A stretch of 64,000 nucleotides of DNA from positions 19,801,419 through 19,865,418 of the forward strand of contig OZ020486.1 in the NCBI GenBank assembly GCA_963971405.1, given 5' to 3'. Positions within the stretch are counted from its first letter, which is position 1, and each line of letters begins with the position of its first letter. The notes below the pieces were generated by a model. That model was not told the origin of the DNA. It saw only the letters and a list, made by a program, of their open reading frames with translations, and did no database searches. Both the position numbers and the translations under genes were made by a program. Of this stretch, positions 25,591 through 59,882 are shown piece after piece. This DNA is from Psococerastis gibbosa. Taxonomy: Eukaryota; Arthropoda; Insecta; Psocodea; Psocidae.

Positions 25591-28205
25591 CTGAAAGCAA
25601 TAATAAAGACATATTATTATTATTTAGAACAAATTGTCACTGATTGCCATTGATGACAATAAAAAACATGGCACGACAACCCTTGAGTCAAAAGTATAGT
25701 CTTCGTGAGGTTACAGTCAAGGATATTGTAGTTAAATTACCATTACTCATAATAAGCTAATTAAAAAATAAGCTTAGAGCTTGTAAAATTATACAACAAT
25801 GTATTCACAATACCAATTGAATATGAATTGAATAACTCTTTGTGTAGACTATGTAATACAAATAAATTTGGTAGCAGGGTGTCAGTAATTTGATATTAGG
25901 TAGGCCCACATTTCGTCCATACCCTTTAAACGAAATCAGATCTCGACACGACTGGGAAATACTCCAACAAAAAGCAGACAACCTGATACCCGCGAACCTG
26001 TGACCAATTAGTTGATTTTTACTGATATCCTGCAGCCATTCAGAGCGTACTAAACTTATCACACGATTTGAATGGATTTAGTGGTTCAATAAATGCCATT
26101 AAAATTGTAGGCATATTCGCATATATCACACTCAACGGTCAGGCTCAAACCTGTTCTGATAAGCCAAGAGCTCGAACGTCCATATTTTCGCTACACGAGT
26201 ATATAATTCACAATGCACAACAATTTCTGCAATTAATATTGGCTGGAGCAGCACTGCAATGCATCGTATTAAGCCAATCAATTTCTAAGCATAGACTAAT
26301 CGTGTAAAAGACGTTGGAACCTCTGTTATGAAAATAATTGGCATTTACGCATAGCCGACTTAATAAAGCACCATCAAAGTCACAAACTATATCCAAACAT
26401 TCGCAGACCACAGGTTAGGGCGTTAGGCGTTACGATTAACCAAAAAATTGTACCAGACTTCGCAGACACCATAGATTTCTTCTTCCGCGGTCGGCCGGAA
26501 AAGTCGTCCAAAGGGGCATGGGTACACAGCAGCAGCCCAGCGCTAACCCAACCATTAATAAAAACCATAACAATTACAGAAAAATCACATTCAATTCCCT
26601 TCTAACACGAGAAAATGCCACAAAACACCTAGAGCAAAGCCCAGGCATTCCGTGAACCAATAGCAACATGGACTGGTACTAATAAAAAGCCAAGCACGCG
26701 GGACCAAGCGGTACTACTAACATCTAGCCAAACACGGTTCACTGCAATGTGGTTCCACAAAGGGCGCTTGTAATTGAGCCGTGTCGGAGACATGTGGTTT
26801 GCATTTAACAATCCAAATATTTTGGACGAGACATCCATCATCCTATCAACGAAATCCTTTGTTTATTTCAATGGGGGCTCGTGCCGTCTAAATGGACAGA
26901 CAGGAAAACGGACTAGAATCACGTCACGACTCAAGTGTGGCCTATTTCTATTATAGTACATTGTCATGCGAAACCACTGACTTTCTTAGATTTCAGTGAC
27001 AATCATTTTTGACAAATTTTTTCCGCTTTCGTTAACTGATTGAGCTGATTGAGGAAGCTTTCAAGGCAATAGAAGAAAGGGAAGGAAGCGAAAGACGAAG
27101 TGACGCCCCAAGACAAATATAGGTTTCCCATGGAGGGTCGACTCCCTACACCTCTTCTAATCCAAGACCAAGTCAACAGCACTGGATAGGCTATTCTGTC
27201 CGTGCACTTTTCCTCCCTTTTTATTTTTCATACATTTTCAAATTACTTGCCGGGGATTAATTTCTTAGGCTGGCGGTTGTGATAGCATTGAGTCTTACAA
27301 TAGGCTACAAACTAATTATTTTCAACTCATTGCCGGTAAGATGAACATACATGTTGAAGTTTCATGATTTTGGGTTTCAATCGATTAAAAAAGCACGCTA
27401 AAAATTATTACAAGTGTCATAAATCAGGACACGCGCAGTAACGCGGCGAATTATTGAGAAATGCAAGAAAGGCTTTTGTAAAAGAAGCATTCTCATAATA
27501 ATACTCCCTCAATTTTGCAGATGTTTTCAACCGAGTTCTGGGGGATAAGAGGTTTGAAATTTAATGACTTCAATAATTTGTCGAGCATATCTTTATAACA
27601 TATAATTAGATAATAAAGTTAATGTCATCTTGCAATTTGTATGTATTGTATCAATCGTGACAATTGCCACTTCACTCCCATATTCATTAGAGCCTATCAT
27701 GGTATCCCATTCTGTCCATTTGGCACAGTCAAATGAAGCTTCTGGGCTTTGGCCACACATTTCATTGTTTCTTGTTGACAACAATAATGTGGTGTGACAT
27801 AAAACAGGCCCAGTAATAAGTGGCGCATTTCCAACGGGCCTTAACAAATGCATGAGATATGGGCAAACTATACATTCCTGCATGACCAGAGTCGTCAATT
27901 AATTATCTTGCCAAGTGGTATAGTTGTCCTCCTAATCTTCGGTAACAAATTACACGGAGTAGTTCGGTCCACATTCACATTCTCCAATACAGTGGGATAT
28001 TGTAAAATTTCAAGAACCGGGCCAAATCCATAATATAAAATACACTAAATTAGCAAAAATTAGCTTGTTTTCTCGTTAATCGAAGAAAGTTGTGATGATG
28101 CGGCACGAACTGCACTTCCATGTTAGGTCGTTGTTTTAATTCCAGGTTCTTAGCTTTCTGCATTCCCAATACGTGACGGAAAACATCTAGCCGGGAGGCC
28201 AACTA
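25591..28205. other. Stretch with no recognised gene
   Basis: This is probably the start of the large first intron of the Unc-115 long isoform. A minus-strand open stretch at 27593-27898 (101 codons) has no recognisable domain or splice context, and I do not call it a gene. No clear repeat ends were seen. Confidence 0.5.
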
Positions 28206-29054
28206 AAAAGAACCGGTCCGAGTTTACTCGAACATGCTTTCCAATTTATCAAAATTAGTAGATAGAGAAAATTAGTAATTTCATGGTAAATAATTTTCCT
28301 ATGATTAAATTTCCGATATCTCGGGGGGGGGGGGGTGTCCACCTGACGTCACTTGTCACTGGTGGTGAGGTAAATTCTAGATAGGTCAGACCAACACATT
28401 ACCACACAGCAATACTGGCAGGGCACGCAATGCATTTGAGCGTGAATTTTCAATCATTTTTTCAAAAACATTTTTTTGTACAAAACCAAATCCTTTTTTG
28501 GGAAAGCAACCTGTCCGGTTTCGTTACTCAATTTAACACCTAGAACATACCTGAAGGTAGAAATCATCGATAGAAAGGTTTCGCAGAAAAATTATTTTTT
28601 AGTCATTTTTCATTAAAATTTAGTCATTTTCATTTTTTTACCCCAGAAGCAAACTATCAAGGGGCAAGCGACCCCCCGCATTTTATCAACATTAACAACA
28701 ACTACAATATCTGTGAATTTAAAAGAAATCGTTGGAGCCGTTTTTGGGAAATAATGTTTTTAGACGTTTTTTTGAAGTTTTTTGAAAATAAAAACCCCCC
28801 CAAATTGAGTTAGCCCAAAATAAAAATGTGAACCTACATGCCGAATTTCATCAAAATCGACCGAGTAGTTTGCCCGGAAATCGACGCACAGACAGACAGA
28901 CAGACAGACAGGCAGACAGGCAGACAGACATTTCGTAAAAACCACTTTTTTGGGTTCCTGGGACCTTAAAACATATAAATCCGTTGAAATCTCGGAATCG
29001 AAAATTTCGACCGTCACAAAGCTTTCCTTATACTACGCATAAATTGGAAAGCAA
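28206..29054 (+). mobile_element. GACA-bearing dispersed element, copy 2 (complete-looking)
   Basis: It starts AAGAACCGGTCCGAGTTTAC, then CATGCTTTCCAATTTAT, and ends TATACTACGCATAAATTGGA then AAGCAAT. The subterminal GCTTTCCAATTTAT and terminal ATAAATTGGAAAGC are inverted copies. In between are a G tract, a CCTGACGTCACTTG site, T-rich blocks and a GACA microsatellite. At 849 bp it is one of three full-length copies (with 46757 and 58767). Confidence 0.88.
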
Positions 29055-30474
29055 TAAGACTAGGTATATTTCACGTATATCATATACATACATAATATCA
29101 TTATAAAATTTACGTCTATATAACCATTCTCACACCACGTTTCTTAACGTTTTAACATAAATAATTATTTTTAATAAGGAGTTGAAAGCTAATGGGGATA
29201 CTAAGGGGAGAGGAATCAGGCGGGCTGGATGGGCATCCGCAGCTTAGTCAATCAACGTTTTCTCGTGTAAGCGGGGAGTTCTCGCCATAAACCTAATACA
29301 GTGAAATCAAGCTACTTAGATTGCGCGTTAATTGCTCCGAAACTTATTGGGCCGGAGTCTGTTGTCAGTCTTGATATACCTGAGTCCTGAGATACCGTAA
29401 CACTGAAGCCATTACAACAATACCCTGAAAAGTATGGCAGCCGCAGCGTATTTCTTTATTTCCCAGGGTCCACGTAGTTTTTATATATTAGTTAGATTTC
29501 TTATTATTATACCAGTACTATAAATTCCGTAAAATTCAAAAATTGAGGAGCTCCAAATCTTTGATTCTACACTCTACAGCGCGGAAGAGAGATATATTCC
29601 TTAGTTACGTCTAGTTAATTTCGTTATTCATGGTATGCTAAACCTGGAAAGTCGCTGCGTCTTGCTGTAAAGTTGTTGGATCAGGATTAAGGTGCTTAAT
29701 ATCCTGTAGGTATACAAGTTCCAACACTTGATCGAACAATGGTTAGCATTTACTATCCTCCAACTCGAGTGAGTTCTATTGTCACGAGCACGCGAAAAGA
29801 AATAGTGTCACGTTTTGTACGGGCGCCTCCACACCGGAATACGGACAATAATTTTCCAAGTCAATGCACTCGTTCAATAACCCTACCTTTCACCGCACTG
29901 CAGTACACCATCAACTTTTACAATAATATTCTACATACCTAGTAACTCCAATACGGGCTTCGAAGGCCAGTAATACTTGGAATAATTGACTGAAAAGAAT
30001 GAATTTACGAGAAATGCAAAATAGCTAAGTTGAGTAGCTCGCAGACTTGTGCTTCAGTTAGTGCTGCTCTTTGTCACAGAGAATCAAAAAAAGTAGCCTG
30101 AAAATCAGGATCTACAGCTATAGAGATTAGTGGTCCAGGGACAAAGTCCCACTTTTACTCATTATTTTCTTTAACCAATGTATTCTCTGCGCAATGCACA
30201 GAGGAGGTTTATTTAGTTATAAAATTGATTAATTCACAGCAATATTCCAATTTAATACTAATCACTCCCTTTGCACGCAAGTCAGTAGATTCATATTTCC
30301 CGTTATGGATACTTCTGGCACCCTCGGGGTCCGATACTCGAAATATATGGCCTTATCTAGTTTGGCAATACACAAGATCAAAAATTACTTCAAGTATGAT
30401 AACACGCCATCAATAACAAAGCTTAATCGTCTATTGACACCTACGACCAATAATATAGGTCAATAGACGTTCTA
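29055..30474. other. Stretch with no recognised gene, left of the giant inverted repeat
   Basis: No domain-bearing reading frame was seen. At 30428-30469, just outside the arm, is a small hairpin with CGTCTATTGAC arms that nearly abuts the arm boundary. Confidence 0.5.
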
Positions 30475-30512
30475 ATAGACCGGGTGCCACCTATCCTTCG
30501 GTTCTGTGAAGT

Positions 30513-32290
30513 GGTGGCAAATTTTCACACTATGTCCGTAATAGTCCATTGGCTGGATATGGCGAAAAGGGATTTCTGGCTGGCGGGAGCGGTAGCATTT
30601 GGACAGGGGATTTTTTTTTCGAACATATTTTTAAACGAAAATTCACGAAACGAGTGGCACGTTGAGATGCTACCAAAATGACAAGTGGCACTCAAATATA
30701 GGTGTAAACTTCCTGCCAGAAGATTTTTCCATGGTTAACCCCTCTCCAGAGGGTGGTAAAATCAGCTGTGAGTACCAAAAATTTGCTGAAGAGGTGGCAA
30801 ATTAAATTTACCTATGTGTGCAAGCTTGTCGCCTGACAATCATAAAAAACAGTATGCCAGACGTTTTTAGCGACAGCAACCCCTTGCCAGAAGGGTCGGA
30901 AATTTATCCTAGGGTGTTCTATGTTAAAAGGGTGGCAGCGGAAAAAACATTATACCGTATAGTACTTGTGAATATAATGTTAGAAATCTTGATCACAGAC
31001 ATTTTAGGTGCAATGGGGGTTGATACAGAAGGGTGGAAGTCACCACCCAAGGTGCAAAATTAGTTGAAAAGGTGGCAACTTAATTTCGTCGTATACATCA
31101 TTGGGTACTTCATATTCATAATTGAAATTTTTGTCCCAGAAGTTTTCTCATGCTTTTCCCTTAGCAAGAGAGGGTAGTAATTTATCTGGGGTGTGATTTC
31201 GATGTAAGGGTGGCACGGGAAATCCATCCTAAAACAGTTCCTTTGGACTAATTTATGGCGGGAAACAACCCCACAGAATATTATAGGGTGGTTAGGGGTG
31301 ATCCAGAGGGGTGGAAAGTCAAATGCTGAGGGATAAAATTGGCTGAAGAGGTGGCAGTCTAAATCGTAGCTTAAATGCCTTAAATTGGTGCCTGGTTTAC
31401 TATGTTATTGGTCACAGACATTACATTCGGTAACTACCCCTTCCCAGAAGGGATGGAAAATTTATAACCAGTTTCGATCCTTAAAGAGGGTGGCAGCGTA
31501 AAAAATGCTGGAAAGGGTCGCAAGCAAGTGTAGTATGGCAAAAAACTTACTCCCAGAACTATCACTCACGGAGGGGTAGGTGACAGAAGGGTTCAAACCA
31601 GGGATGAAACGGAGAAAAGTGGCTAAAAAGGTGGCAACTTTATTTCTACCTTTTTGTTAAGTAAGTTACTACTAGTATCTGGAAAATTGTCTCCCAGAAA
31701 TTTCTTTCTCATTTTTCCCCTCCCCAGAGGGGGTAGAAATTTATCAGGGGTGGGATTTCACTATAAAGGTGGCATGAAAAATTCAACGCGAAATAGCTGC
31801 TTTTTGCCCATATATGGCGGGTAACCCAATGCCAGAATATTATATTATAATTAAGGGTGATCCAGAGGGGTAGCAAACCATAAGCTGAGGGATAAAATTA
31901 TTTAAAGAGGTGGCGCCTTGAAATTTTGCTATGTGTTAGTATAGTTAACTGCAAGTACGAAAAAATCGGTCCCAGAAATTTTATGCGATGCCTACCCCTC
32001 CCCAGAGGGGGTAGAAATTTATCAGGGGTGGGATTTCACTGTAAAGGTGGCATGAAAAATCCAACGCGAAATAGCTGCTTCTTGCCCATATATGGCGGGT
32101 AACCCAATGCCAGAATATTATATTATAATTAAGGGTGATCCAGAGGGGTAGCAAACCATAACCTGTAAATTCCATGAAAAGGTGGCGTCTTGAAATTTTG
32201 CTATGTGTTAGTATATTAAAATATGAGTACGAAAAAATCGGTCCCAGAAGTTTTATGCGATGCCTAACCCTCCCCAGACGGGGTAAAAGC
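30513..32290 (+). repeat. Degenerate tandem array, monomer about 139 bp
   Basis: The core GGTGGCA (or one-base variants) falls at 30513, 30653, 30793, 30931, 31071, 31209, 31350, 31489, 31630, 31769, 31909, 32046 and 32181, a spacing of 135-141 bp throughout. A second motif, CCCCTCCCCAGAGGGG and relatives, recurs at the same period. Adjacent monomers alternate in flavour, and 31720-31985 and 31990-32280 are a near-identical pair, so a higher-order unit of about 275 bp overlies the monomer. Confidence 0.92.
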
Positions 32291-32659
32291 AGGAAAGTCA
32301 ATTTTAATCACTAACCCGGACTTTGTGCCAGTCTCTAATATTGATCCATTCATATTACCAATACCGTTTGCCTACATTTTAAAAGCACTTATCCCCAGTG
32401 GCGAAATTTGAATAGCTCCATGGGGGGTGGGGGTTGCAACCTATACAGTAAATGTTAATATGAGTATTTCAGAGTATTACAATTGAGTATGTACCGACTG
32501 GAAATTTAAATATAGGTACTTAACGAAATAGAGTAGATTTTTTAAACATTTTCTATTTTTATCAAAGCCCCTGGACCTCTTGTGGCTACGGCTATCCCGT
32601 AGCAGTGAATTAATCGTTGGCAATTCCACCACCAAGTAATAAATTAATAACGCCGCGCC

Positions 32660-33281
32660 ATTTCATATAATTTCTTCAAAAAATAATTTGTAGCACAGAA
32701 CCAAATATTTTTTTGGGAAAGAAACCTATTTGGTTTTTTTACTCTATTGAACACCTAAAACATACCTGAAGGTAGATATCATCGATAGAAAGGTGCAGCA
32801 GAAAAATTATTTTTTAGTCATTTTTCAAGAAAATTGAGATATTTTTATTTTTTTACCCCTAAAAGCAAACTATCAAGGTGCAAGCGACCCACCGCATTTT
32901 GTTAACATTACTAACGACTACAATATGTGAATTCAAAAGAAATCGTTGGAGTTGTCTTTGAGAAATAATTTTTTTTATACGTTTTTTTTTTAGTTTTTTG
33001 AAAATAAAAACCCCCAAACTGAGTTAGCATCAAATAAAAAGAATTGCCTCGAGGTACGATTTTTGTGAACCTACATGCCAAATGTCATCAAAATCCACAG
33101 AGTACTTTGCCCGGAAATCGATGAACAGACTGACAGAGCAACAGACCGACATTTCGTAAAAAACACTATTTGGGGTTCCTGGGACCTCAAAACGTGTAAA
33201 TCCGTTTCTCTCGGAATCTCGGAACAGAACATTTTGACCATCACAAAGCTTTCCTTATACTACGTATAAACTAAAAAACAA
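32660..33281 (+). mobile_element. GACA-bearing dispersed element, copy 3 (within left arm)
   Basis: It has the family's middle and right end (TTTTTGGGAAAG, CCTGAAGGTAGATATCATCG, TTGCCCGGAAATCG, CCTTATACTACGTATAA) but only two GACA-like units, and its left end is missing. It is duplicated with the arm, so it inserted before the inverted duplication arose. Confidence 0.85.
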
Positions 33282-34579
33282 TAATGTGTGTTTCAACCAT
33301 AAATGCGAATTTTTTAATGCAAAAACATTAATCAACGGAGGAGAATTTTTTGATAATATACAGTACATGCATTGCGTAGGAGTAAGATGGTTGGTTTTTA
33401 AGCATTTTATATTCTTTTATTTATAATTAAACCTCTCCTCCTCTGTAGATCCCTCCCGCACATCAGCCGCGATGGTAAGGATAACTTACATGCTTACACC
33501 TGTAACTCTACGTTCGATTCGACGAGAAAGAAATTTTTGACCCCATAATTTGGAATATTTGGATTATAATTGCCTCATTTTTTTATTTGGTGCCCATGTT
33601 TCAACATAGGTCCCATGTCCTATTTATGCAATTTAGTCAAAATGTGCATTTAGATTATTTTCAGATCATGGAGATATACAGTAAGTCTACTTAATACCCC
33701 ATAGCCTCATCGATACATAATACAAATACCATAGCCTCGGTAGCCTATAATAAGATAAGATAGGGGCAGGTCCTATTTCCGGAAATGTGGTCGCTGTTCT
33801 TGAATAAATAAAATTCTCAAAAAAAAAAAAAAAAACGGCTAGTTGGAATGAGTTTACGTGAATCTGTGGACGAAATCATCATTTATCTTGCACGGTAATT
33901 GAGGTTATTAGATTGAAAATTAAGGTGGCGAAATTACCGCTAGACAAGTTCGTTGCGGATTTCTAATTCAGGGCCTTCTGAGATACGAGACATCCCATGT
34001 TTTTTGGGCATCAATTACATTATACATTTATTATGTAGGTACTATTTTTAGCTACCTACCAAAATCATTTATCTACCTATTATTTCATATCCTCCTGGAG
34101 CCAGTGATACAAGTTGGTAATTAAATTTGCAAACAGTTTAATAATTGGCGATGATTTGGCCAATTTTAGTGGTGAAACTTATAAAACGTTTGCTTACGCC
34201 TTATAAGTTCAGTACGTGCTTTTGGCATTAGTCTGATATCTGAATTATGGCCCTGGTAGTAATATGAATTATGATTCAACGGTAATCAGAATAAAAAAGG
34301 CTACTTTTTCAATTATTTCCTATCTCGATAAGCACAATTAAAATAATATTTAATTTTCTCGCTTTGCCAATAAATTTAGGATCTACAATTAAAGCTCACA
34401 GCTAGTCCTTCACTATTGGCCTGTTGGTTTTAATTTATAGGCTACCTTTCATTTCGGTTTTGAATTTGCGAAAAATATTATCGAAATGGGCCTGACTGTG
34501 AGACTACGAAATCTTTAAGAAATCCTTTTTTTTACTGATGTTATTCTCTAGTTCACCAAAACGGGCCAATAATAAGGCA

Positions 34580-35099
34580 AGGGGAGATCGGGGAAAGATG
34601 GATTGCGTAAAGTGGGACTCCTAAAACTTGAAGAATAACTTAACCTTTCAATAAATTGGCAACTTACCGACATACCAGTTAGTCTGTCAAGACCTGAGAA
34701 CATATTTAGCGCAACTGTTTCCATCTTACCCCAAGGAGTCAGTGTTAATCTTAGCCCACCATGTCATTGACAAGAAATGATGTTATGTAAGAAATAGTCT
34801 ATCTAAGTTTTCCAAAATTATTAAGTATTATGAATTTTTACGACTTTTCTCATGCAACTGAGAAGAAATTAGTAAATAATTAGAAACATTCAATTTGTTA
34901 AAACTTACTAAAGTGAACCATATTACTAAAAGCGTGACATAAAAAACGTCATTTTCAATACAACCTCAAAAAAACAACCAAGAAATTCTTGTGCCGCGAT
35001 TACCGGTCAGTTTGGCAGTTCATTTATGTCACTTTCAAAACTACCACCAGTTTTTAGTTTGGCGGAAATTTGACTATCAATCTTACCCCAATCTCCCCT
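34580..35099. mobile_element. TIR element, AGGGGAGATYGGGG ends
   Basis: The ends AGGGGAGATCGGGGAAAGAT and (inverse) AGGGGAGATTGGGGTAAGAT are 20-bp inverted repeats with two mismatches. Related ATCTTACCCC-type strings occur inside. It is 520 bp and non-coding, a MITE in the inverted-repeat spacer. Confidence 0.75.
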
Positions 35100-35329
35100 A
35101 GCCAACACAATGCTGCTGCAGTTGAAATCCAAATGTATTAATTATTGGCTTATATATACCTTCGCGGATTAAACAACAACTACACCTATTATGAAAGGAA
35201 AAAATTTATAGCTTATGGTCATTTTCATTCGGTCTTCGCATTTCGGATTGTTTCTAAACCGTTAGTAGCTAGTTGGTTCCTGTATCCATGATTTGAGTGC
35301 TTTCATGTTTTCTACTAGGACAGCTGCAG

Positions 35330-35900
35330 TTACGCCGGTATAGATTAGGAATAATACTTAGGTCTTTATCATCGTTGCCAACATCAGGGTATCAAGCAAA
35401 TTCTCGTGCCTTACATAGTCAAAAGTCTTTTAGAAGTCAATAAAACACAAGTAGACATCTTTGTTAATGTCCAGACGTCTTTTAGCCAACAGTTGTAAGC
35501 CATACAATGCATCCTCCCGCGGGTGCCTCACCCATTGCTAAAGCGACGCCACGCCATGCCACGCTCACATCACTTTTAGGATAATATAAGCTCTTTTAAA
35601 TTATTTTCAAGAATATTTTTTTAGCGGTTTACTTATCAAGGTGATCGTCTTGTGTCTTGTGTTTCTTCGGTTTGATGTCTGCCTGCTTAATACAAAACAT
35701 GCTCTACTTCATGGGTCATAATCATAATACTGCAGCGGATTCAACTCCATGCTCCTCACCGTCGTAGAGGTTCTAAAGATCTTCCACACATGTCCCCAGC
35801 TTGCCTAGCACAGAAGTGATAACATTTCCCTGTCCCCGTCCTTGTTTATTATTGCCTTTATTCTCATGTGTAGATTAAACGAGTCACGTCTGTTCTCCAT
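35330..35900 (-). mobile_element. LINE reverse-transcriptase relic (RTE-like clade)
   Basis: On the minus strand at about 35530-35350 the reading HPREDALYGLQLLAKRRLD then INKDVYLCFIDF, a stop, KTFDYVRHENLL matches the RT segment REAIFGLQLL...VYLCFIDFEKAFDRVRHE of arthropod RTE-like LINEs. The stop codon inside the conserved block shows it is dead. Farther upstream the similarity fades (about 35700-35900). Confidence 0.75.
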
Positions 35901-37299
35901 CCCTTCCATTTCCCTGCAGTTCCTTTTCCATTCTCTCCTTAGTCAATGCAATTTTCATCTGTACCTCACGTTTGACCTCTTATGTTATGAATAGGGGCTC
36001 AAAACAAACTTTTATAAATGCCATAAGGGATGAATTTCTTGATTTCACATTTGGATGTGGTAGAATGGAGAGGATACCAAGAGACTGGCAAGTCCTAGAC
36101 GAAGAGTCTGCATCCGACCAATGCTACGTGGCATTTGTACGCCAACAGAACAAGCCACTCCATTAATGATAGCTCTACATTACCTTCGAAAAAGTTTCAC
36201 CCAAAACTCCTTGGTGGACGAAGAGAATTGAAAAATCCCTTTCGGCTCTGGCCGATCAGGTGTAGGGAGAATCCGCAGCCCCTGCTTTTTCTCTACGCTA
36301 CCTACGCTATGTAAGTGATAACAAATAAAAAATACTTCATTATTTTCCCGACCACAGCATAACACACAAAACACTCTTGTGTTACAAGTTTCGAACCACA
36401 ATGCTGACTATGAACTTTACTTATCAAACCATTTTCACTTTAACTGGGCGCCATCTTAAAATGGTTGATTTGTCGTAAAAAGTGTAGATTTCATTATCGT
36501 AGATAATAATACGGGCTTTCAGTCAGATTTTAATTCATTTCTCTTCGACCAATATTAACTGAGATATGAATTATATGGGGTTTCAATCAGCTCCCATCTT
36601 GTAACTGAACAGTGGATCTTGCTGGTTAACGAACTCGATATCAAGACATTTGTATGATCAATTTATGCGCTACTTCCATCGAAATCGGATAATATCTACG
36701 GAAGTTAGAGTGTTTCCTAAAATCGATATACACACATTATTTGTACATACATAGGTTACATAAGTACAGTCATACTGTACACATATATATATATATAATG
36801 TATAATATTTTGAATGGAGGGTGGTTTTAGGCTCAGGGGGTCATGAAATGAAAAGTTGTGAAGAAATTTTCGGAAAGTTGAACATTGGTCGCCATCTCAA
36901 TAGGTGGATGAATCTCCCTAAATCTTTGAAAGCTAACCAGCGAACGATAAAAAAGAATAAGACGAGGGGGTCACAAAGTAGTACCTACTGCTGAATACAA
37001 AACGGCAATGTAAGCGAGAAATACGAGCCTCCAAACGGAGATGATGGCGTTTTTACTGCAAATCTTTCAGAAGCAACAAGGCTGCAAGAAACCTTACCTA
37101 AAGATAAACGCATTATTCAATGGAACTCTCTTCAGTAACAGAAGAAATATCTCTACAGCATTCTAATGCCGAAGCCTTGTAGCTCCTAATAGAGACGCAT
37201 TCCCCTGACTGTAAGTTTGGCTCTGACAGTAATCTACATCCTGGCGAAGACTCTACAGCAGGCGTTTCTTCACTTTCAGATGTCAACCCAACCTGGTTA

Positions 37300-37850
37300 A
37301 CGGAAGAATGAGTGGCGCATGCTTTGGAATATTTTCCCCCTTTAAATCACCGGACAGATGTAGGATCTTCCCCTTACTCCTTTAAAAAGAAATTCTTGAG
37401 GTTACTAAATTCCTTGTACCCTATGGTCCCTCACCGCGGCCTGGGGCTTTACCTAAATCTACTACTACTAAATTCTTTACAGCGATTTATAAGAGCTGCT
37501 TAAGGTTTAGTTCCATCACTTCCATACCCATCAAGTGGCGGGAAGTCTAGATGATCTTCATTCCCAAACACGATAGATCCGCGGTTACACCAAGCCATTG
37601 GCGTTCAGACCTATTAGCCTCAGTTCCTTTTTGCTATACGAAATGCTAATGGAACGAGAAATCAGGCTTACTTTCACCAGCAGCAATGCATTGCACGACA
37701 GTCAGCCAGGACTCAGGCCAGGGCGGTCAACAGAAAGCGCCCTGCATAGTTTTGTCACGTAACTAGAAGGGAATCTTGACAGTAAAGAAATAGTGCTCTG
37801 TGTATTTCTTGACGTGGGTGGTGGTTTTGCGAATTTAATTCTTATTTGAT
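37300..37850 (+). mobile_element. LINE reverse-transcriptase relic (R1/Jockey-like clade)
   Basis: The plus strand reads, across several frames, EYFPPFKSPDRCRIFP (degenerate form of the FKSPGPDGIFP motif), WREVxMIFIPKHDRS (IPK motif), FRPISLSSFLLYEMLMEREI (RPISL motif), and ALHSFVT followed by EGNLDSKEIVLCVFLDVGGG (FLDIEGAF motif). The order is that of the RT palm and fingers in R1/Jockey LINEs. At least two frameshifts and several stops mark it as dead. It is 5'- and 3'-truncated. Confidence 0.85.
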
Positions 37851-38329
37851 AGGGGTATTCACTGCGTATGATTTACCCTAAGGGAAATTAAGGGAAAAAA
37901 CTTCAGTTTTTCTCATGGGTTTTCTACGCAGAAAAATAATGCCATAAGGAAACGCATTTCAAAACGTTCCCGCACTTTACCCAAATACTTGGCTGGGTAA
38001 ACTGAGCTTGGGGAATCGAAAACACAGAACGGTCATATTTGCTGTTGTTTACTTGTTTTGCATTTGAATTTTGGTTTTTATTCATATTTAATTAAAAAAT
38101 AAAATAAACAACAAAGGGAAACATATATATGGCAAGAGTTGGATGCTCATAAGTTAATAGAAAGAAACTAATTAAAAGAAACTTTGGAGGTAAGTTAGGT
38201 TAGGCCGGATCAAGTGGGAAACGTAGAGATGCACGTTTCCATGGCATTATTTTTCTACGCAGAAAAACTGTTCTATTCCCTCAGTTTCCTACTTTCCCAT
38301 AGGGAAAACCAAACGCATTTAATACCTCT
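37851..38329. mobile_element. TIR element, AGGGGTATTCACTGCGT ends
   Basis: The left end AGGGGTATTCACTGCGT and the inverse of the right end AGAGGTATTAAATGCGT are imperfect inverted repeats. Internal inverted pairs around CTACGCAGAAAAA and ATGGCATTATT add foldback character. A similar end, AGGGGTATTCACTGTGTG, lies alone at about 52790. It interrupts the end of the LINE relic. Confidence 0.65.
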
Positions 38330-38496
38330 GACTAATATTGGCAGGATCATCGCCAATTATTAAACTGTTTGCAAATTTAATTACCAACTTGTATCACTGG
38401 CTCCAGGAGGATAGGACTTAATAGGTAGATAAATGCTTTTGGTAGATAGCCAATAATAGTACCTACATAATAAATGTATAATGTAATTGATGCCCA

Positions 38497-39943
38497 AATA
38501 TATTGGCTAAGCGCTTATTGTACTTTCATTGATCAAGCAAAGATCAACCATGTCTTGAAGCTATGGATTTTGATTAATGGAGCAATATGGCATGTAACAT
38601 GTAATAGTAGTTCATAATAAATGTGTGTAGCACTGTTAGTGGAGTGCAATTACACAAAAACCTCGGAATCCAGGGACAGTCCATGAATATTTATAAAAAT
38701 TTTAAAAATGTGTTGTTAGTGGTATATAGAAAAAAGTTTTAAAAATTTTTTTTTGTCGTAACGGAGTGTTAGTGGTCTCGTTCGAGAGGCGGGACTATAA
38801 AGTTCTGTCTTACATAGTTTTGAAGATCAAAACATTAAGATCACGTCTTCCAATCTCGATACAATGAGTATTGGTGGAGTGCCGTGAGAAAAAAAGGTAA
38901 CCCTGTAGTTTAAAATTGAGAGGGGGCAAAAATGTTTTTTTAACATTTATCTATATACTACTAAAACACATTTTGAAGCTTTTATAAACATGCATTGACT
39001 GAATTCAGAGGCATAACCATTTTTTTTTACTCACGGCGCTCCACTAACACTCATTGTATCGAGATTGGAAGACGGGATCTTAACGTTTCAATCTTCAAAA
39101 CTATGTAAGGCAGAACTTAATAGTCCCGCCACTAGAACGAGACCACTAACACTCCCTTACGACATAAACCGACCGAATGGTGCGCATTACAAAACAGGAA
39201 GTTACGCTGCCACACCCTGTAGATAAAAATTGTGAGCGGGCAAAACATTTTTTTAACATTTTTCTATATACCGGTGCTATTAAAAAACTATTTTCGAAGT
39301 TTTTATAAATATTCATTGACTGTCCCTGAATTCCGAGGCTTTTCCATTTTTTTGACTTACGGCGCTCCACTAATACTCAATGTATCGAGCATGGGGAACG
39401 TGATCTAAATGTTTTGATCTTCGGAACTATGTACGCCTAAGACAAAAGTGTCTAGTCCCACTTCTCGAACGAGACCATAAACACTTCGCTAAGACATTCC
39501 CCGACCGAATGGCGCGCATTCCTAAATGAGGAAGTTACGCGGCCACACCCTGTAGCTAAAAATTAAGAGCGGTGAAATTTTTTTTTTTAACTTTTTTCTA
39601 TATATCACTAACAATACATTTTTAAAATTTTTATAAATATTCATGGACTGTCCCTGGATTCTGAGGTTTTGCCATTTTTTTTTTTTTTTTGTCTAATTTA
39701 ACTCCACTATGTATCCGGCATTGGATTTTCATTAAAAAAATTCACAATGGGATCCCTATTGGCATAGGTGCTTCGAAGAACAATATAGAGAAATAGCCGT
39801 CATGAATCCATACAAAAATAAGTTGTATTCACCCTCACAGCTATGGCTCCTGAAACGCCGCTACATCACCAAGTAGGGCTAGGACCTATGACCATTCGTC
39901 TATGGAAATCGTAGATTCTGTCCAGAAGCCGGAAGTTTCGGGG
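38497..39943. mobile_element. Insertion in the right arm: foldback/tandem element with GTTAGTGG motifs
   Basis: It is absent from the left arm, where the flanking sequence is continuous (AACATGGGATG side joined to GGGCATCAATTAC side). Inside, 38635-38760 is inverted relative to about 39590-39715 (CCAGGGACAGTCCATGAATA, GTGTTGTTAGTG). The block around CTCATTGTATCGAGATTGGA is repeated in both orientations at about 38860, 39050 and 39380. It looks like a foldback or satellite-like composite, with no coding capacity. Confidence 0.8.
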
Positions 39944-40929
39944 AAAACATGGGATGTCTCGTATCTCAGAAGGCCCTGAATTAGAAATCCGCAACGAAAC
40001 TTGTCTAGCGGTAATTTCGCCACCTTAATTTTCAATCTAATAACCTCAATTACCGTGCAAGGTAAATGATAATTTCGTCCACAGATTCACATAAACTCAT
40101 TCCAACTAGCCGTTTTTTTTTTTTTTTTTTTTTTGAGAATTTTATTTATTCAAGAACAGCGACCACATTTCCGGAAATAGGACCTGACCCTATCTTATCT
40201 TATTATAGGCTACCGAGGCTATGATATTTGAGGAGCTTAGTTACAAACGTGGCAACTCCATTTTTTCACAAAATTAGGTTTTGATCCGACCTTGCAGAAA
40301 ATTGTAATGTCCACCTGCACGTTGTAAAATAAAGTGACAAAAGCAGCCAGATTGCGCACAGAAGCGCTGAGAAGTCTGGGGTTAGCTATAAACTTAATGC
40401 AATTTTCAACAGAAAATCCGCTCTCCTGAAAAATTCTAAAACTTGGAGTTGGCCATGATTGTAAACAGCCTCCCCAATTTTGTATTACGAATGAGGCTAT
40501 GGGGTATTAAGTAGACTTACTGTATCATCTCCATGATCTGAAAATAATCTAAATGCACATTTTGACTAAATTGCATAAATAGGACATGGGACCTATGTTG
40601 AAACATGGGCACCAAATAAAAAAATGAGGCAATTATAATCCAAATATTCCAAATTATGGGGTCAAAAATTTCTTTCTCGTCGAATCGAACGTAGAGTTAC
40701 AGGTGTAAGCATGTAAGTTATCCTTACCATCGCGGCTGATGTGCGGGAGGGATCTACAGAGGAGGAGAGGTTTAATTATAAATAAAAGAATATAAAATGC
40801 TTAAAAACCAACCATCTTACTCCTACGCAATGCATGTACTGTATATTATCAAAAAATTCTCCTCCGTTGATTAATGTTTTTGCATTAAAAAATTCGCATT
40901 TATGGTTGAAACACACATTATTGTTTTTT

Positions 40930-41545
40930 AGTTTATACGTAGTATAAGGAAAGCTTTGTGATGGTCAAGATGTTCTGTTCCGAGATTCCGAGAGAAACGG
41001 ATTTACACGTTTTGAGGTCCCAGGAACCCCAAATAGTGTTTTTTACGAAATGTCGGTCTGTTGCTCTGTCAGTCTGTTCATCGATTTCCGGGCAAAGTAC
41101 TCTGTGGATTTTGATGACATTTGGCATGTAGGTTCACAAAAATCGTACCTCGAGGCAATTCTTTTTATTTGATGCTAACTCAGTTTGGGGGTTTTTATTT
41201 TCAAAAAACTAAAAAAAAACGTATAAAAAAAATTATTTCTCAAAAACAACTCCAACGTTTTCTTTAGAATTCACATATTGTAGTCGTTAGTAATGTTAAC
41301 AAAATGCGGTGGGTCGCTTGCACCTTGATAGTTTGCTTTTAGGGGTAAAAAAATAAAAATATCTCAATTTTCTTGAAAAATGACTAAAAAATAATTTTTC
41401 TGCTGCACCTTTCTATCGATGATATCTACCTTCAGGTATGTTTTAGGTGTTCAATAGAGTAAAAAAACCAAATAGGTTTCTTTCCCAAAAAAATATTTGG
41501 TTCTGTGCTACAAATTATTTTTTGAAGAAATTATATGAAATGGCG
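40930..41545 (-). mobile_element. GACA-bearing dispersed element, copy 4 (within right arm)
   Basis: This is the mirror of copy 3: TTTATACGTAGTATAAGGAA at its start, then AAGCTTTGTGATGGTC and the same truncated left end. It differs from copy 3 at only a few positions. Confidence 0.85.
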
Positions 41546-41899
41546 CGGCGTTATTAATTTATTACTTGGTGGTGGAATTGCCAACGATTAATTCACTGCT
41601 ACGGGATAGCCGTAGCCACAAGAGTTCCAGGGGCTTTGATAAAAATAGAAAATGTTTAAAAAATCTACTCTATTTCGTTAAGTACCTATATTTAAATTTC
41701 CAGTCGGTACATACTCAATTGTAATACTCTGAAATACTCATATTAACATTTACTGTATAGGTTGCAACCCCCACCCCCCATGGAGCTATTCAAATTTCGC
41801 CACTGGGGATAAGTGCTTTTAAAATGTAGGCCAACGGTATTGGTAATATGAATGGATCAATATTAGAGACTGGCACAAAGTCCGGGTTAGTGATTAAAA

Positions 41900-43697
41900 T
41901 TGACTTTCCTGCTTTTACCCCGTCTGGGGAGGGTTAGGCATCGCATAAAACTTCTGGGACCGATTTTTTCGTACTCATATTTTAATATACTAACACATAG
42001 CAAAATTTCAAGACGCCACCTTTTCATGGAATTTACAGGTTATGGTTTGCTACCCCTCTGGATCACCCTTAATTATAATATAATATTCTGGCATTGGGTT
42101 ACCCGCCATATATGGGCAAGAAGCAGCTATTTCGCGTTGGATTTTTCATGCCACCTTTACAGTGAAATCCCACCCCTGATAAATTTCTACCCCCTCTGGG
42201 GAGGGGTAGGCATCGCATAAAATTTCTGGGACCGATTTTTTCGTACTTGCAGTTAACTATACTAACACATAGCAAAATTTCAAGGCGCCACCTCTTTAAA
42301 TAATTTTATCCCTCAGCTTATGGTTTGCTACCCCTCTGGATCACCCTTAATTATAATATAATATTCTGGCATTGGGTTACCCGCCATATATGGGCAAAAA
42401 GCAGCTATTTCGCGTTGAATTTTTCATGCCACCTTTATAGTGAAATCCCACCCCTGATAAATTTCTACCCCCTCTGGGGAGGGGAAAAATGAGAAAGAAA
42501 TTTCTGGGAGACAATTTTCCAGATACTAGTAGTAACTTACTTAACAAAAAGGTAGAAATAAAGTTGCCACCTTTTTAGCCACTTTTCTCCGTTTCATCCC
42601 TGGTTTGAACCCTTCTGTCACCTACCCCTCCGTGAGTGATAGTTCTGGGAGTAAGTTTTTTGCCATACTACACTTGCTTGCGACCCTTTCCAGCATTTTT
42701 TACGCTGCCACCCTCTTTAAGGATCGAAACTGGTTATAAATTTTCCATCCCTTCTGGGAAGGGGTAGTTACCGAATGTAATGTCTGTGACCAATAACATA
42801 GTAAACCAGGCACCAATTTAAGGCATTTAAGCTACGATTTAGACTGCCACCTCTTCAGCCAATTTTATCCCTCAGCATTTGACTTTCCACCCCTCTGGAT
42901 CACCCCTAACCACCCTATAATATTCTGTGGGGTTGTTTCCCGCCATAAATTAGTCCAAAGGAACTGTTTTAGGATGGATTTCCCGTGCCACCCTTACATC
43001 GAAATCCCACCCCAGACAAATTACTACCCTCTCTTGCTAAGGGAAAAGCATGAGAAAACTTCTGGGACAAAAATTTCAATTATGAATATGAAGTACCCAA
43101 TGATGTATACGACGAAATTAAGTTGCCACCTTTTCAACTAATTTTGCACCTTGGGTGGTGACTTCCACCCTTCTGTATCAACCCCCATTGCACCTAAAAT
43201 GTCTGTGATCAAGATTTCTAACATTATATTCACAAGTACTATACGGTATAATGTTTTTTCCGCTGCCACCCTTTTAACATAGAACACCCTAGGATAAATT
43301 TCCGACCCTTCTGGCAAGGGGTTGCTGTCGCTAAAAACGTCTGGCATACTGTTTTTTATGATTGTCAGGTGACAAGCTTGCACACATAGGTAAATTTAAT
43401 TTGCCACCTCTTCAGCAAATTTTTGGTACTCACAGCTGATTTTACCACCCTCTGGAGAGGGGTTAACCATGGAAAAATCTTCTGGCAGGAAGTTTACACC
43501 TATATTTGAGTGCCACTTGTCATTTTGGTAGCATCTCAACGTGCCACTCGTTTCGTGAATTTTCGCTTAAAAATATTTTCGAAAAAAAAATCCCCTGTCC
43601 AAATGCTACCGCTCCCGCCAGCCAGAAATCCCTTTTCGCCATATCCAGCCAATGGACTACTACGGACATAGTGTGAAAATTTGCCACCACTTCACAG
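41900..43697 (-). repeat. 139-bp tandem array in the right arm
   Basis: This is the inverted copy of the array at 30513-32290. The core appears on the plus strand as TGCCACC/TGCCACT at the same spacing of about 139 bp. Open stretches in the array come from its low stop density and are not genes. Confidence 0.9.
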
Positions 43698-43726
43698 AAC
43701 CGAAGGATAGGTGGCACCCGGTCTAT

Positions 43727-45397
43727 AATAACATCCCGCGCAATTTCAGTGAACTGATAAACAACCGACTATATTAAGCAAAGGACAGTACTGCAATATA
43801 ATGCCAAACAACAAGAAGATTCCTTGCAAAATAGGCTATAGGCAACATACACAAATGTTTTTCTCAGCGATTGGTTGACAGGAACTCCCTACCGTATCAT
43901 CCTCCAGCTCTCGATCATGCGCCTTCCTATTCAGCGCATTGTACGTTTGTTTAAAAGCTAGCAGACCAAAAAGTCATGACTAATAATGTAAGGTGACCTA
44001 TTTATTATTTACAATAGCGACTTCTATTTAATTTAATGACGACTTAACCAAAATAATTGAATTTATTAATTCCTCGGTCTGCAGCTGCATAATCAGTAAA
44101 TGTGCATGTAGATAATAAATTAGAGCACGCCTTCATCTAACAAAAGACGTGGAATTACATTGTTCCAGAAGTCAGAGAAGACACAAAAATAAATTAAAAT
44201 TGGCTATCGCCATCACCGAAAGTGGGGGAGGTGCATAGCCTAATAATAGCTGCCGACAACTCTTAACTACATTAAATTTTGTCGCTGCACCACACGGCGC
44301 TTCAATCTCAAAGATAAAAGAAAATTGTCTTTATTTTCCAACTTGGACTCTGGCCCAATCATGACAAAAGACCTTATTTCAACCACGGCAAGTGAAGCCT
44401 CATCCAAGAAACTGGCTGGATGCATTACGATAATGCGGCTTCCATTTTAGTTGCTAGGACAACGTGTGACCTTGACACAGTAAAACTGCAGTCCACGCCT
44501 TCGTCGATTTCCCCCTCCCGCCAATTCCATTGTCCCCAAATGTTACCAATGAAACGTTTGCCTAGAAAACTTGGAGAATGCTTGCCCCCAAACAATCAAA
44601 CGTGTTAAATGTTACCTTCTTGTAATAAATCTGAACCGGAATCTGAAAATGCTTAATAAATTTAGCCGGTTTGGGTCTCGTCCAAGGGAAGGCTTCAATC
44701 ATTTTGAAATTAGCCTCCAGGTTACTGCACTTTCTGATTATAATTATAAGCTGCGCATGGGCATAGACAATATTTTTATTTTTATTTATTCAGGAAGTAA
44801 GTTCATTTTTTAAAGAAACATACTAGGAAGAGAAGAAACTAGGCTAATTTAATAACATCAGAGCAAAGTCAGTAAACGTGCTTGTAGGATTGCAGATAAT
44901 AAATGAAAACACCATTATAGAATTAGGGCATAAAGAGGGGAAAATAGGTCCAATGTCACGAACATGTTTGGAAAAACCATGAATACTGGACAGTACACAG
45001 ACGGTCATTAGCAAAGAAAAGAACCGGTACGATTGAAACCGTACATGATTTCGTAACTAACTATCAATTATTAATGAGTGGAACCAACCATCTAGATTCT
45101 GGAGTAAATAATTGTCCTGGCAATTTATATACTGCTATTACGATTTTCCCAATCTTAAATCATTGGATCGTTCGATAGATTGTCCAAAATCTGCCATCTG
45201 CCATGTGTGCAAAGCGCCAACAAAACACTAAAAATGCAACAGAATGCAATGGATTTTCCTACATAGGCTATTTAAAGAAAAACCAATCATAAACTACCAA
45301 ACTTGGTTGAGGAGGCAACCTGCGTGGTTTGTTCCACGGTTTAGCATTATTAAAAAATCCTACCAGAACTTATGAAGCATTGATGGATACCTTTTCT

Positions 45398-45404
<7 letters not shown>
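43727..45404. other. Stretch with no recognised gene, right of the giant inverted repeat
   Basis: It is AT-rich with scattered short open stretches and no domain. A long T tract lies at about 45402-45429, at the head of the next element relic. Confidence 0.5.
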
Positions 45405-45431
<27 letters not shown>

Positions 45432-45778
45432 CCCAGAACCAAAACCATGAATCAAAGAAAAACCTTCAGAATCGATTTTTAGAACAAAAATTGAGACCTT
45501 TTTTGGCGTTTGTAAGGAGTAAAATCCCCAATATTCAGTAAGCCCAAAATATATAAAAAATTGTCCCTAGATAAAATTTTTGTAAACCTATACATGCTGA
45601 ATTTCATCAAAATCCATTGAGTAGTCCAATCGACACAAACAGATGATATGATAGGACCGATAGACGATTAGCAAAAATTACGTTTTTGGAGTTCCAAACA
45701 AAACCGAATAAATCTCAAAATCCAAAATTTCGACCATCACAAACTTTCCTTGTACTAGCGTATAAGTAGAAAAGCAAT
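45405..45778 (+). mobile_element. GACA-bearing dispersed element, copy 5 (old, diverged)
   Basis: Recognisable parts are GAATTTCATCAAAATCCATT, GAGTAGTC, a lost GACA tract, AATTTCGACCATCACAAA and CTTTCCTTGTACTAGCGTAT ending AGAAAAGCAAT. It is the most diverged copy, so the family has been active over a long period. Confidence 0.75.
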
Positions 45779-46039
45779 AAATAATATCCAACACTAAATT
45801 TCAGAATAACACTTGACACTAACAGTTAAATATTTTCGTCTGTCCCTTTCTGTCCCCGTACAAAAGGAATCAGTTTCATTATGTAGAGTGAATCTGAGCA
45901 GTGCTTGCATGTAAGGCTATAAAGAGGAATAGGGGAACTTGACTACGTTACGTATTCATAAGGTGACGGGCTCGCTCCTCTCATTCAACTGACCTTGTCT
46001 AATTAGGTCAATGAGTCAATTCCTGCGGCCATCAGAACC

Positions 46040-46720
46040 ATTTTCCAGCAGCACGCATATACCCTGCCATTGCAGTACCAACTCTCAACATTACACCACA
46101 AAGGATAAATTGTGGACGGGAACACAATGGACCATGTGCACCATATTGTGTGCTATGGTCAATGCCACAAATTATTGGGTACATCCGAGCAAAGATTGCC
46201 AAGAGTCTGTAACAACGTGAAAACACATTTGGCAGGAGTGTGTGGGAGGTTATTGAACGGAGTCGAATAATCCCACTACCCTATCAACCGATAAAACTTC
46301 CTCCTTAAATGCCTCTTCTATCGACCTTTGAGACTGCTGCTCTGAAAAGGGAAGTCTCAGGGTTTTCTACCAGGATGTCCTTCTTCTGCTGTGAGCCCTC
46401 AGTCCTTCTACCTTCCCTTGGATTATTACATGCAGGTGATAAATTTCGTTCCTCGTCACATGGCCGGGGTATATCAGTTCTCGGTTTTTACCGTCAGCAG
46501 CAACTCTGCATCTGTATCCATTCACCTCAGGATCTCATTAGGGACACAATCTCTCCAGGATATATGCAGCATTCGTCTGTATACCCACATTTCAAATGAT
46601 TCAACATTTCAACTGATTCTGTTCTCCATATAGCTCGTGTCAACGCCCCTCCCTCCATACCACATAGAACAATAAAACTACCCGACGTTAATAATGCCAC
46701 AAAAAGTTCCACACACATGC
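46040..46720 (-). mobile_element. LINE 3'-terminal relic (endonuclease-RT type)
   Basis: On the minus strand the string YGMEGGALTRAIWRTESVEM then LNHLKCGYTDECCIYPGEIV corresponds to the common post-RT LINE motif (LYG.E.WTLTK..W.R.EAFEMW.YRR.L.I.W). It is followed, in a shifted frame, by EIYHLHVIIQGKVEGLRAHS and RRRTSWWKTL, the IIQGKVEGKR..RR..SWL motif. The frames are broken and it is dead. It may be the same broad clade as 35330-35900. Confidence 0.75.
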
Positions 46721-46756
46721 ATATACTCTAGGACAGACAACACTGCGACAAATAAT

Positions 46757-47394
46757 AAGAACCGGTCCGAGTTTACTCGAACATGCTTTCCAATTATCAA
46801 CATTAGTAGAAAGAGAATTTGAGTAATTTCATGGTAAATAATTTTCCAGTGGTTAAATTTCCGATATATGGGGGGGGGGGTTGGGTTGTCCACCTGACGT
46901 CACTGGAAGTGAGGTAAATTCTAGACCAACACATTAATTTTTCAAAAAATAATATTTTGTGCAAAACCAAATATTTTTTTGGGAAAGCAACATATCCGGT
47001 TTCGTTACTCAATTTAACACCTAAAACATGCCTGAAGGTAGAAATCATCGATAGAAAGGTTTCGCAGAAAAATTATTTTTTAGTAATTTTTCATTAAAAT
47101 TTAGTAATTTTTATTTTTTTACCCCCAGAAGCAAACTATCAAGGGGCAAGCGACCCCCCCCCCTTTTTGTCAACATTAATAACGACTACAATATATGAGA
47201 ATTTAAAAGAAATCGTTGGAGCCGTTTTTGAGAAATAATTTTTTAGACGTTTTTTTGAAGTTTTTTGAAAATAAAAACCCCCCAAATTGAGTTAGCCCAA
47301 AATAAAAATAAAATGGTCCCGAGGTATGACTTTTGTGAATCTACATGCCGAATTTCATCAAAATCGACCGAGTAGTTTGCCCGGAAATCAACGA

Positions 47395-47433
<39 letters not shown>

Positions 47434-47558
47434 TTTCGTAAAAACCACTTTTTTGTGTTACTGGGACCTGAAAACGTGTAAATCCGTTGAAATCTCGGAA
47501 TCGAAAATTTCGACCATCACAAAGCTTTCCTTATACTACGTATAAATTGGAAAGCAAT
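46757..47558 (+). mobile_element. GACA-bearing dispersed element, copy 6 (complete-looking)
   Basis: It starts AAGAACCGGTCCGAGTTTAC and ends TATACTACGTATAAATTGGA then AAGCAAT. The GACA tract is a nearly uninterrupted run of about nine units at 47397-47431. At 802 bp it is close to the consensus with the best-preserved ends, so it is probably one of the younger copies. Confidence 0.9.
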
Positions 47559-50362: not shown

Positions 50363-51245
50363 TTTTTCCAGAACGCGGCGACTCCCAGCAGAAAGGTGAA
50401 ATAGCATCCTCATCATCAATCATAACTTTCTCCCCAGTACCATCCATAATTTTATCAATTGCAGTTCTGATGATGGGATCGGCTTTCGGAGCAGCTATCA
50501 ATGTATTATCAACGGGCGAACTCTTGGTTCGCTCTATTGTTTTCGGCTGCGGAAGAACATCCTCCTCATCAATCTGGAGATTTTCTTGCAACACAGTTAA
50601 CATATTCTTTTCAAACTCCGTTTCCAACTTTAACAACCGATCTAGGTTGTCTACCCTCTTTTCAAATATTTGGGCTCGTTTCTGAAGACTATTAAGCCGA
50701 TCCATAAGTGTATCTTCCCAGTCTTCGTCTTCCTCGATCTCATTATCATCACAGCTCCGAACACGAAGGCATGGCTTACGTTCGACAATCCTGTCCCTTC
50801 CCGAATAACTTTGACTTCTTTTTATGCTTCTATCAGCCTCGAGCAATTCTTCTTCCCTCCTTAAGCTCTTATTCACTATGAGATCAATTATGTTATCAAT
50901 ACTGTCAGCTTTTGTAAGCAAAACTTGGACATTGTTTTCACAGTCCCCTACTGTTTCGCCATCTTTTAATTTAGTGCATTGTACTTCACAGTTCTTCAAA
51001 GGTACTTGTCTTATAATAATACTGTCTACAACATCGTTATTGTTGTTATTTCTTAGAAGCTGGTTGCATGTAGCCAAAGGTGTATTTTCATTTGCAGCAT
51101 CATCTTCGTCTTCAGTTATGACTAGATCAGTTACAGGTTCAGTTCTTGAGTTGAGCCGTTCGATCAACTTATTTATATTAGTCTGTCGTTCACTTAACTT
51201 CTGCGTTTCACTCTCCCCTTTTAATTTACTTTTTGTCTTACCCAT
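50363..51245 (-). CDS. Unc-115: Candidate first coding exon of the Unc-115 long isoform
   Basis: This minus-strand exon encodes 294 residues plus one base. The ATG at 51245-51243 has a good context (AACATGG) and an in-frame TAG 24 bases upstream ends the frame, so the start is well supported. It ends at a strong donor, AAAAA|GTAAGC. Its leftover base A joined to GT of the 25590 exon gives AGT (Ser), reading SGKS-KTYCQNC into LIM1 without a frame break. The protein begins MGKTKSKLKG, has acidic stretches (TEDEDD, EIEEDEDWED), a likely coiled coil at about residues 176-224, and SFCWE-like aromatic residues near the end; no named domain is recognised. Linkage to Unc-115 is inferred from strand, phase and lack of an alternative partner; it could belong to a separate gene. 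Confidence 0.7.
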
Positions 51246-51827
51246 GTTAGCAGTTTTTGATAGAAGCAACCCACGAAACTAGATTCACTTTGTCATACTG
51301 TAATAATCATAAGTTACATAACATTTATAATATAAAACTAAGCATGCACATTGCACAGCAGGGTTAATGCGGTCTTAAAATTGGCAAGACCTTGACAGAA
51401 AGGAAGACGGTTATTAAGCTTCGGTCTTTGGAGGTAGCAAACACGTGCTTTGTCATTTGGCAAGTCAATAGGTCTGCATACAAAGAGTCAATCAAAATGG
51501 AATCGCAAGTCAACGCGGTTGCGCAAGAGAACCCATTGTACATAAACTCAGCATCATAAACCAAGCAATTGGTTTGTATAAAAACACAGAAAACTTTAAA
51601 TACACCTAAAGGGCTTCCACCGAGCGTAGACCAAAAACCCATGCCAGGTTAGGGTTAGAGCTTGGCTAATCGCTATGCAGAGCTGTGGTGGGCCACCTCA
51701 CAGATAGCCAGTCTTGTCTTTCACCCCCCCCCCCCCCCCATCTTCCCAGTGTAACTAAATAAAGGGTTCGATTGATTTTTTTTTTATCGGACACCAAAAG
51801 GAGACAGTGCAGACTAGGTCGCATCTG

Positions 51828-58265: not shown

Positions 58266-58766
58266 CGAAGCAAAAACACGCACATGTTAATACCCACTGT
58301 CAGTTCTTCGTCATCAAAGTAGAGGAAGTCTTTTTCGTCCCCGCACCTTTAAACACACTCGATGCCGATTTTGTAAAATTGTAATTAGAATCCACCATCT
58401 TCAGTCGTATCAATATACTGAATCCTGCGACACCCTAATTTCAGCAATCGGTTGATTATATCTAGGGCGAAATCTCCCGGCAAAAGCTCACCATTTTTTG
58501 CATCATAGCTTCAAATAAAATTAGAAACAATGCCTTTGCCACGGTATCAGATTAATTCGGTACACCCCACCGCCCTTAGTCAAGAACCACTAATATTTTT
58601 CACCAAACGCCACTCTCTCGAAAAGCTTTCGAATTGTGCCATGATCACGCTTCGAATTTCAGTATTTAGAGGTCATATTTAAAAAAACTTCGTTAAGTAA
58701 GTGCTTTACTAATTTTTGATAAGTAAAAATAAACTATTCTTTTGGTCATGGTAAGGAGCGCAGTCA

Positions 58767-59848: not shown

Positions 59849-59882
<34 letters not shown>

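Follow-up and report, generated by a model that had tools for sequence, protein, structure and literature searches.

A giant inverted repeat with a foldback-type layout and arms that diverge inwards, in a predicted Unc-115/abLIM intron of Psococerastis gibbosa

The described systems closest to the locus analysed here, a giant inverted repeat at positions 30475–43726 of a 64,000-nucleotide stretch of the Psococerastis gibbosa genome (Insecta, Psocodea; assembly GCA_963971405.1, contig OZ020486.1, positions 19,801,419 to 19,865,418 of the forward strand; this whole stretch is called the window), include two elements of Drosophila. Tetris of Drosophila virilis consists of a flanking domain, a ~220-bp tandem domain, an inner domain and a non-coding middle, with terminal inverted repeats (TIRs) of up to 1735 bp and a target-site duplication (TSD) of 8–10 bp (PMC4079207). 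The TIRs of Galileo in D. mojavensis lengthen by taking in neighbouring internal sequence, which its authors propose to result from recombination and conversion between the TIRs, and the TSD of this element is 7 bp long (PMC3573991). Arm-to-arm conversion explains the high identity of the human Y palindrome P6 (PMC3723533) and has been proposed for inverted repeats of Caenorhabditis, where the arms of C. elegans F44E5.4 measure 2207 bp at 99.7% (PMC1803023). The palindromes of the springtail Folsomia candida are blocks of collinear genes, and concerted evolution was found by their authors to be no explanation for them (PMC5490193). Hairpin-RNA (hpRNA) loci have been described in D. simulans, and one of them, hp-ODox2, has transposon sequence in its arms (PMC10317233).

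With Tetris and Galileo the P. gibbosa locus shares long inverted ends with outer tandem repeats (~220 bp in Tetris, ~210 bp in Galileo F and 278 bp here), with Tetris also the non-coding middle and, it seems, with Galileo the growth of the ends by recruitment of internal sequence. It differs from both in having only an imperfect 7-bp TSD candidate and in having been found just once in the window, and from Tetris in that its arms are about twice as long as the longest TIR given for that element. Two highly similar arms around a spacer are also found in P6 and in the Caenorhabditis repeats; here, in contrast, the arms are derived from repeats, no gene was found and conversion is read from a gradient within the locus. 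The F. candida case is likewise one of inverted duplication in an animal genome, but its palindromes bear genes. The D. simulans hpRNA loci are similar as inverted repeats able to form long double-stranded RNA (dsRNA) if transcribed, whereas our locus is known from its sequence alone. Among the matches listed in the open-licence literature the locus is not named in titles or abstract openings. Arm conversion in long inverted repeats is already known, and this locus is a good example of a long palindrome, not an unprecedented one. We propose, giving the account about an even chance of being right, that it is a genuine long inverted repeat of mobile-element-type DNA with a foldback-type layout, which inserted or grew in an intron of Unc-115 and in which the outer part of one arm was recopied from the other.

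Extent of the inverted repeat and divergence between its arms

Using BLASTN of the window against itself and blockwise alignment we could confirm that the giant inverted repeat announced by the original prediction, which had been made from the letters alone, is genuine (Table 1). The prediction of 3.7-kb arms and a 4.2-kb loop held for the left arm (3.70 kb) and the loop (4160 bp) but not for the right arm, which measures 5.40 kb, and the repeat lies where it was claimed to lie, except that the inner right edge, placed at 38347, is 16 bp short of the true 38331. The two right-arm insertions without a left counterpart were found again (~245 bp and ~1.45 kb), and a search at E 1e-4 with the loop, called unique, found nothing similar in the rest of the window, the only match being that between its own internal inverted ends. 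The homology falls into three pieces, namely an outer one (30475–33721 against 43726–40477 on the minus strand) with 99.45% identity over 3251 columns, 13 mismatches and 5 gap openings, a middle one (33723–34003 against 40230–39944) with 96.2% and an innermost one (34003–34170 against 38498–38331) with 93.5%. The outer arms share perfect runs of 1174, 442, 358 and 352 bp, the longest of which puts a chance match of the arms out of question. An identity above 99% over kilobases is what gene-converting palindromes show. The very high identity that had been predicted for the arms applies to their outer 3.2 kb but is not uniform, as divergence grows inwards.

The arm-to-arm count of substitutions that had been recommended as a check gave 12 mismatches in 3234 columns (0.37%) for the outer block, 5 in 281 (1.8%) for the block between the insertions and 11 in 167 (6.6%) for the innermost block, the three being separated by the two large right-arm stretches. 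These counts come from blockwise alignments, as a whole-arm alignment misplaces the innermost block owing to the 1.45-kb stretch, and they leave out gap columns and 13 left-arm bases (33710–33722) near the 245-bp stretch, where the alignment is ambiguous. Fisher's test of the outer against both inner blocks gave p 1.4e-8, the two steps taken singly giving 0.009 (outer to middle) and 0.015 (middle to innermost). A scan for a single change point placed it best at 34047, with 17 differences in 3558 columns on one side and 11 in 124 on the other; the gain from this change point was reached in none of 300 permutations, also after 20 or 40 columns had been trimmed from the inner edge. Such patchy identity along the arms is again a property of gene-converting palindromes, and the gradient supports the earlier idea of gene conversion as the process that keeps the arms alike. 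With outgroups taken from repeat copies or tandem units, seven of the 15 outer-block differences could be polarised, four being derived in the right arm and three in the left, which shows that each arm has its own mutations. As a single inverted duplication predicts one uniform divergence, the gradient is what an inverted repeat of older date would show if its outer arms had been recopied. In the simplest account this would have happened here, with the copying limited near heterologies. If the assembly is right, the locus records how a long inverted repeat ages, with recent homogenisation outside, older relics inside and steps near insertions, and whether heterologies restrict the copying between arms becomes testable in relatives.

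Composition of the arms and the loop

The arms are built from repetitive, mobile-element-like DNA. A degenerate tandem array with a period of 278 bp occupies 1.84 kb at the outer end of each arm, and the motif GGTGGC occurs 12 times in this outer domain, against a mean of 0.6 and a maximum of 5 in 1000 first-order Markov sequences. Starting at 30793 it recurs about every 139 bp, 10 of the 11 intervals being 135–141 bp long, and the autocorrelation of the domain has its maxima at 278 and 559 bp. Tandem Repeats Finder (TRF) reported the right-arm copy of the array at 41916–42484 with a period of 278 and 2.1 copies, self-BLAST gives 91% identity for the two innermost units, and a GTGGCA-type motif of the array is also present in the terminal segment of the arm. 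Further inwards both arms carry the same truncated copy of a dispersed repeat, ~80–84% identical to the family copies at ~24.4, 28.4, 46.9 and 59.4 kb. The arms are therefore copies of each other and not independent insertions, and the repeat must have inserted before the duplication or before the last homogenisation of the arms. From the two right-arm-only stretches, the shorter one has no repeat match within the window and the longer one is partly built of nested repeats, both direct (326-bp period) and inverted. Six-frame Pfam searches of the left arm and of the right-arm insertion region (38331–40490) were negative at E ≤0.1, so that no coding meaning was found for the identical arm translations described in the original prediction, and Rfam gave no match at the gathering threshold.

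The dispersed repeat itself is ~0.85 kb long and has copies at 28200–29058, 46749–47562, 58766–60022 and, in reverse, 24430–25050. Its copies contain an ACAG microsatellite, the copy at 59 kb has an internal duplication and the copy at 28 kb has ends that look like a short inverted repeat (TGCTTTCCAATTTAT / ATAAATTGGAAAGCA). Exact patterns taken from it, one run against viral_contigs and two against genome_contigs, found no match.

Inside the loop the sole Pfam match in six frames at E ≤0.1 is a decayed reverse-transcriptase fragment, whose score lies below the curated cut-off of 29.6 bits. It is followed by a candidate resembling a miniature inverted-repeat transposable element (MITE), which adjoins the inner edge of the right arm. 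No TSD above chance was found for this candidate, and it may mark a rearrangement breakpoint.

Table 1. Positions in the window of the inverted repeat, its parts and the intron predicted to contain it.
Feature	Position	Strand	Basis
Left arm of inverted repeat, 3696 bp	30475..34170	+	self-BLAST, blockwise alignment
Right arm, 5396 bp with its two arm-specific stretches	38331..43726	-	self-BLAST, alignments
Outer domain of left arm, degenerate tandem array, 278-bp period	30475..32310	+	GGTGGC counts, autocorrelation, TRF
Truncated dispersed-repeat copy nested in left arm	32661..33285	+	self-BLAST; right-arm counterpart 40917-41540
Right-arm-only stretch, ~245 bp	40231..40476	-	alignments
Right-arm-only stretch, ~1.45 kb	38499..39943	-	alignments, repeat searches
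Loop, 4160 bp, decayed repeat debris inside	34171..38330		self-comparison, Pfam
Decayed reverse-transcriptase fragment in loop	37604..37834	+	RVT_1, E 0.0052, 16.9 bits
MITE-like element, ~100-bp inverted ends, 71% alike	37851..38330		loop self-comparison, 37851-37954 / 38329-38234
Predicted phase-1 Unc-115/abLIM intron, 24,772 bp, containing whole palindrome	25591..50362	-	splice signals, LIM exons

Origin and possible role

The palindrome is laid out like a foldback-type non-autonomous element, with tandem repeats on the outside of the arms, a further domain inwards of them and a middle without coding capacity. The long inverted ends contain internal tandem repeats (the 278-bp array in the outer 1.84 kb), and the frames of the loop show only the decayed RVT_1 fragment. 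According to this model, either an inverted duplication or the end repeats of a foldback element would have given rise to the arms. Gene conversion, or break repair with the opposite arm as template, would afterwards have overwritten the outer 3.2 kb of one arm with the sequence of the other, and the copying would have halted near the large arm-specific insertions, so that the inner 0.45 kb stayed older. The palindrome is probably selfish or neutral DNA. It may add to the known elements a foldback-like architecture with very long inverted ends, placed in an intron where long dsRNA could form.

Several results weigh against this model. There is no exact TSD beyond chance, the best being a 3-bp TAA, a length that was matched or surpassed in 1371 of 5000 random placements. 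The imperfect 7-bp candidate with one mismatch given by a mirror scan counts for the model, being suggestive of a target duplication of Galileo size and reached by 182 of 5000 random placements, but this null was run after the match had been seen and is uncorrected. A scan with independently slipping ends gave a 5-bp TAATA for the whole element, which we do not count as evidence because 537 of 3000 random pairs reach at least 5 bp. The terminal 16-mer, with up to three mismatches, occurs within the window only at the two ends of the palindrome, of which no second copy was found there. The array unit and the palindrome end, run as exact patterns, are absent from viral_contigs, the sole collection searched with them and not one of animal genomes; as such scans used exact patterns on viral and prokaryote collections, their negatives mean little. 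Six-frame Pfam searches revealed no transposase in the left arm, the loop or the right-arm insertion region. For the gradient, the block boundaries were set from BLAST pieces, the innermost blocks are short, with 16 differences in 448 columns carrying the trend, and the change point sits ~44 bp inside the second insertion and not at it, so that the steps coincide with the insertions only roughly. Finally, the nested repeat in the arms and the old debris in the loop are what an ordinary inverted segmental duplication would have. Taken by its sequence features, the palindrome resembles a foldback element but cannot be classed as one.

An ordinary inverted segmental duplication of the repeat-rich intron, made by template switch or break repair, with later arm conversion and without any transposon unit, is hence a close second to the foldback-type model, and we regard it as possible, if somewhat doubtful. 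It would account for the lack of an exact TSD beyond chance, of a transposase and of another copy in the window, as well as for the composite arms and the unrelated debris in the loop, and inverted repeats taken to be maintained by conversion are described for Caenorhabditis (PMC1803023) and human Y P6 (PMC3723533). Against it stand the outer edges, which both coincide with the start of the motif-bearing domain (first GGTGGC 38 bp in, even spacing from 30793) although a random end need not do so, and the imperfect 7-bp target duplication, which so few random placements reach.

A Helitron-like 3' hairpin with a 7-bp stem (TGCCACC/GGTGGCA) ~10 nt from the outer edge was discarded, having a z of -1.04 and 32 of 200 shuffles folding as well, and a recognisable transposase inside the element was rejected as a candidate, Pfam having given one weak RVT_1 only (E ≤0.1). 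Directly outside the left edge of the palindrome, at 30428–30469, two perfectly complementary 11-bp arms enclose a loop of 20 bp.

An assembly error, that is a chimeric or haplotype-confused join mirroring one locus, is unlikely. The outer-arm divergence of 0.37% would suit it, as this value lies within the range of allelic heterozygosity. It is opposed by the 4160-bp loop without a repeat elsewhere in the window, by the two large arm-specific stretches and distinct outer flanks, by the 6.6% divergence of the innermost block and by the presence of changes on both arms, though two haplotypes would also give such changes. A read with a missed adapter produces a mirror without a loop, whereas here a long loop is present and the arms are not identical apart from read errors.

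We consider it very improbable that the palindrome is an intronic hairpin-RNA gene targeting the dispersed family captured in its arms, with arm conversion keeping the trigger double-stranded. In such a system, transcription of Unc-115 would let the intron fold into a ~3.2-kb duplex, which Dicer would cut into small interfering RNAs acting on that family. The perfect runs of up to 1174 bp within the predicted intron would indeed give a near-perfect duplex if the intron is transcribed, and at four copies of the dispersed family elsewhere in the window there are 81 start positions of perfect 21-mers matching the arm. A role like that of the D. simulans hpRNA loci is possible but unsupported.

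That members of one repeat family inserted here twice, independently and in opposite directions, as a repeat-rich window with several copies of one family might suggest, is hardly credible. This is rejected by the same truncated nested repeat in both arms and opposed by an outer identity of 99.4% against ~80–84% to other family copies. Nor does either arm by itself have exact matching flanks beyond chance, with 3 bp at the left arm and 5 bp at the right, where at least 5 bp was reached by 537 of 3000 random pairs.

The host gene and further features of the window

LIM-domain exons lie on the minus strand at ~25.5, 24.1, 23.3, 22.1 and 21.6 kb, and the one of these five that was run against Pfam matched LIM with E 1.2e-8. 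The best matches of the joined exons among solved structures were the LIM domains of abLIM3 (E 1.4e-27) and abLIM2 (E 8.2e-24), which supports the name Unc-115/abLIM, that of an animal actin-binding gene, Unc-115 being presumably the invertebrate name of abLIM. An acceptor TTTCAG is followed by the LIM1 exon, beginning at 25590, and a 322-codon frame at 50310–51278 has a GTAAG donor at 50362 after ...SGK, in a phase compatible with the LIM1 exon. This predicted splice was read from the sequence, and a phase match is expected by chance in one of three cases. The upstream frame gave no Pfam family above the cut-off, and from 26 stretches in viral_contigs that matched a pattern of the protein of the exon at 50.3–51.3 kb none was confirmed; we infer that the frame is part of Unc-115. 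With this predicted splice the palindrome would lie within the Unc-115/abLIM intron, and the position beside or inside Unc-115 that had been left open at first can be narrowed, from the LIM exons and splice signals, to inside a predicted intron of 24.8 kb.

Three smaller repeats were found elsewhere in the window. A 225-bp self-complementary palindrome at 7562–7786 matches its own reverse complement by ~90% in self-BLAST, a recent tandem duplication of 89 bp, 98% alike, is located at 17093–17279, and a short inverted repeat with 101-bp arms at 96% (57886–57986 / 58163–58263) is a MITE-like candidate.

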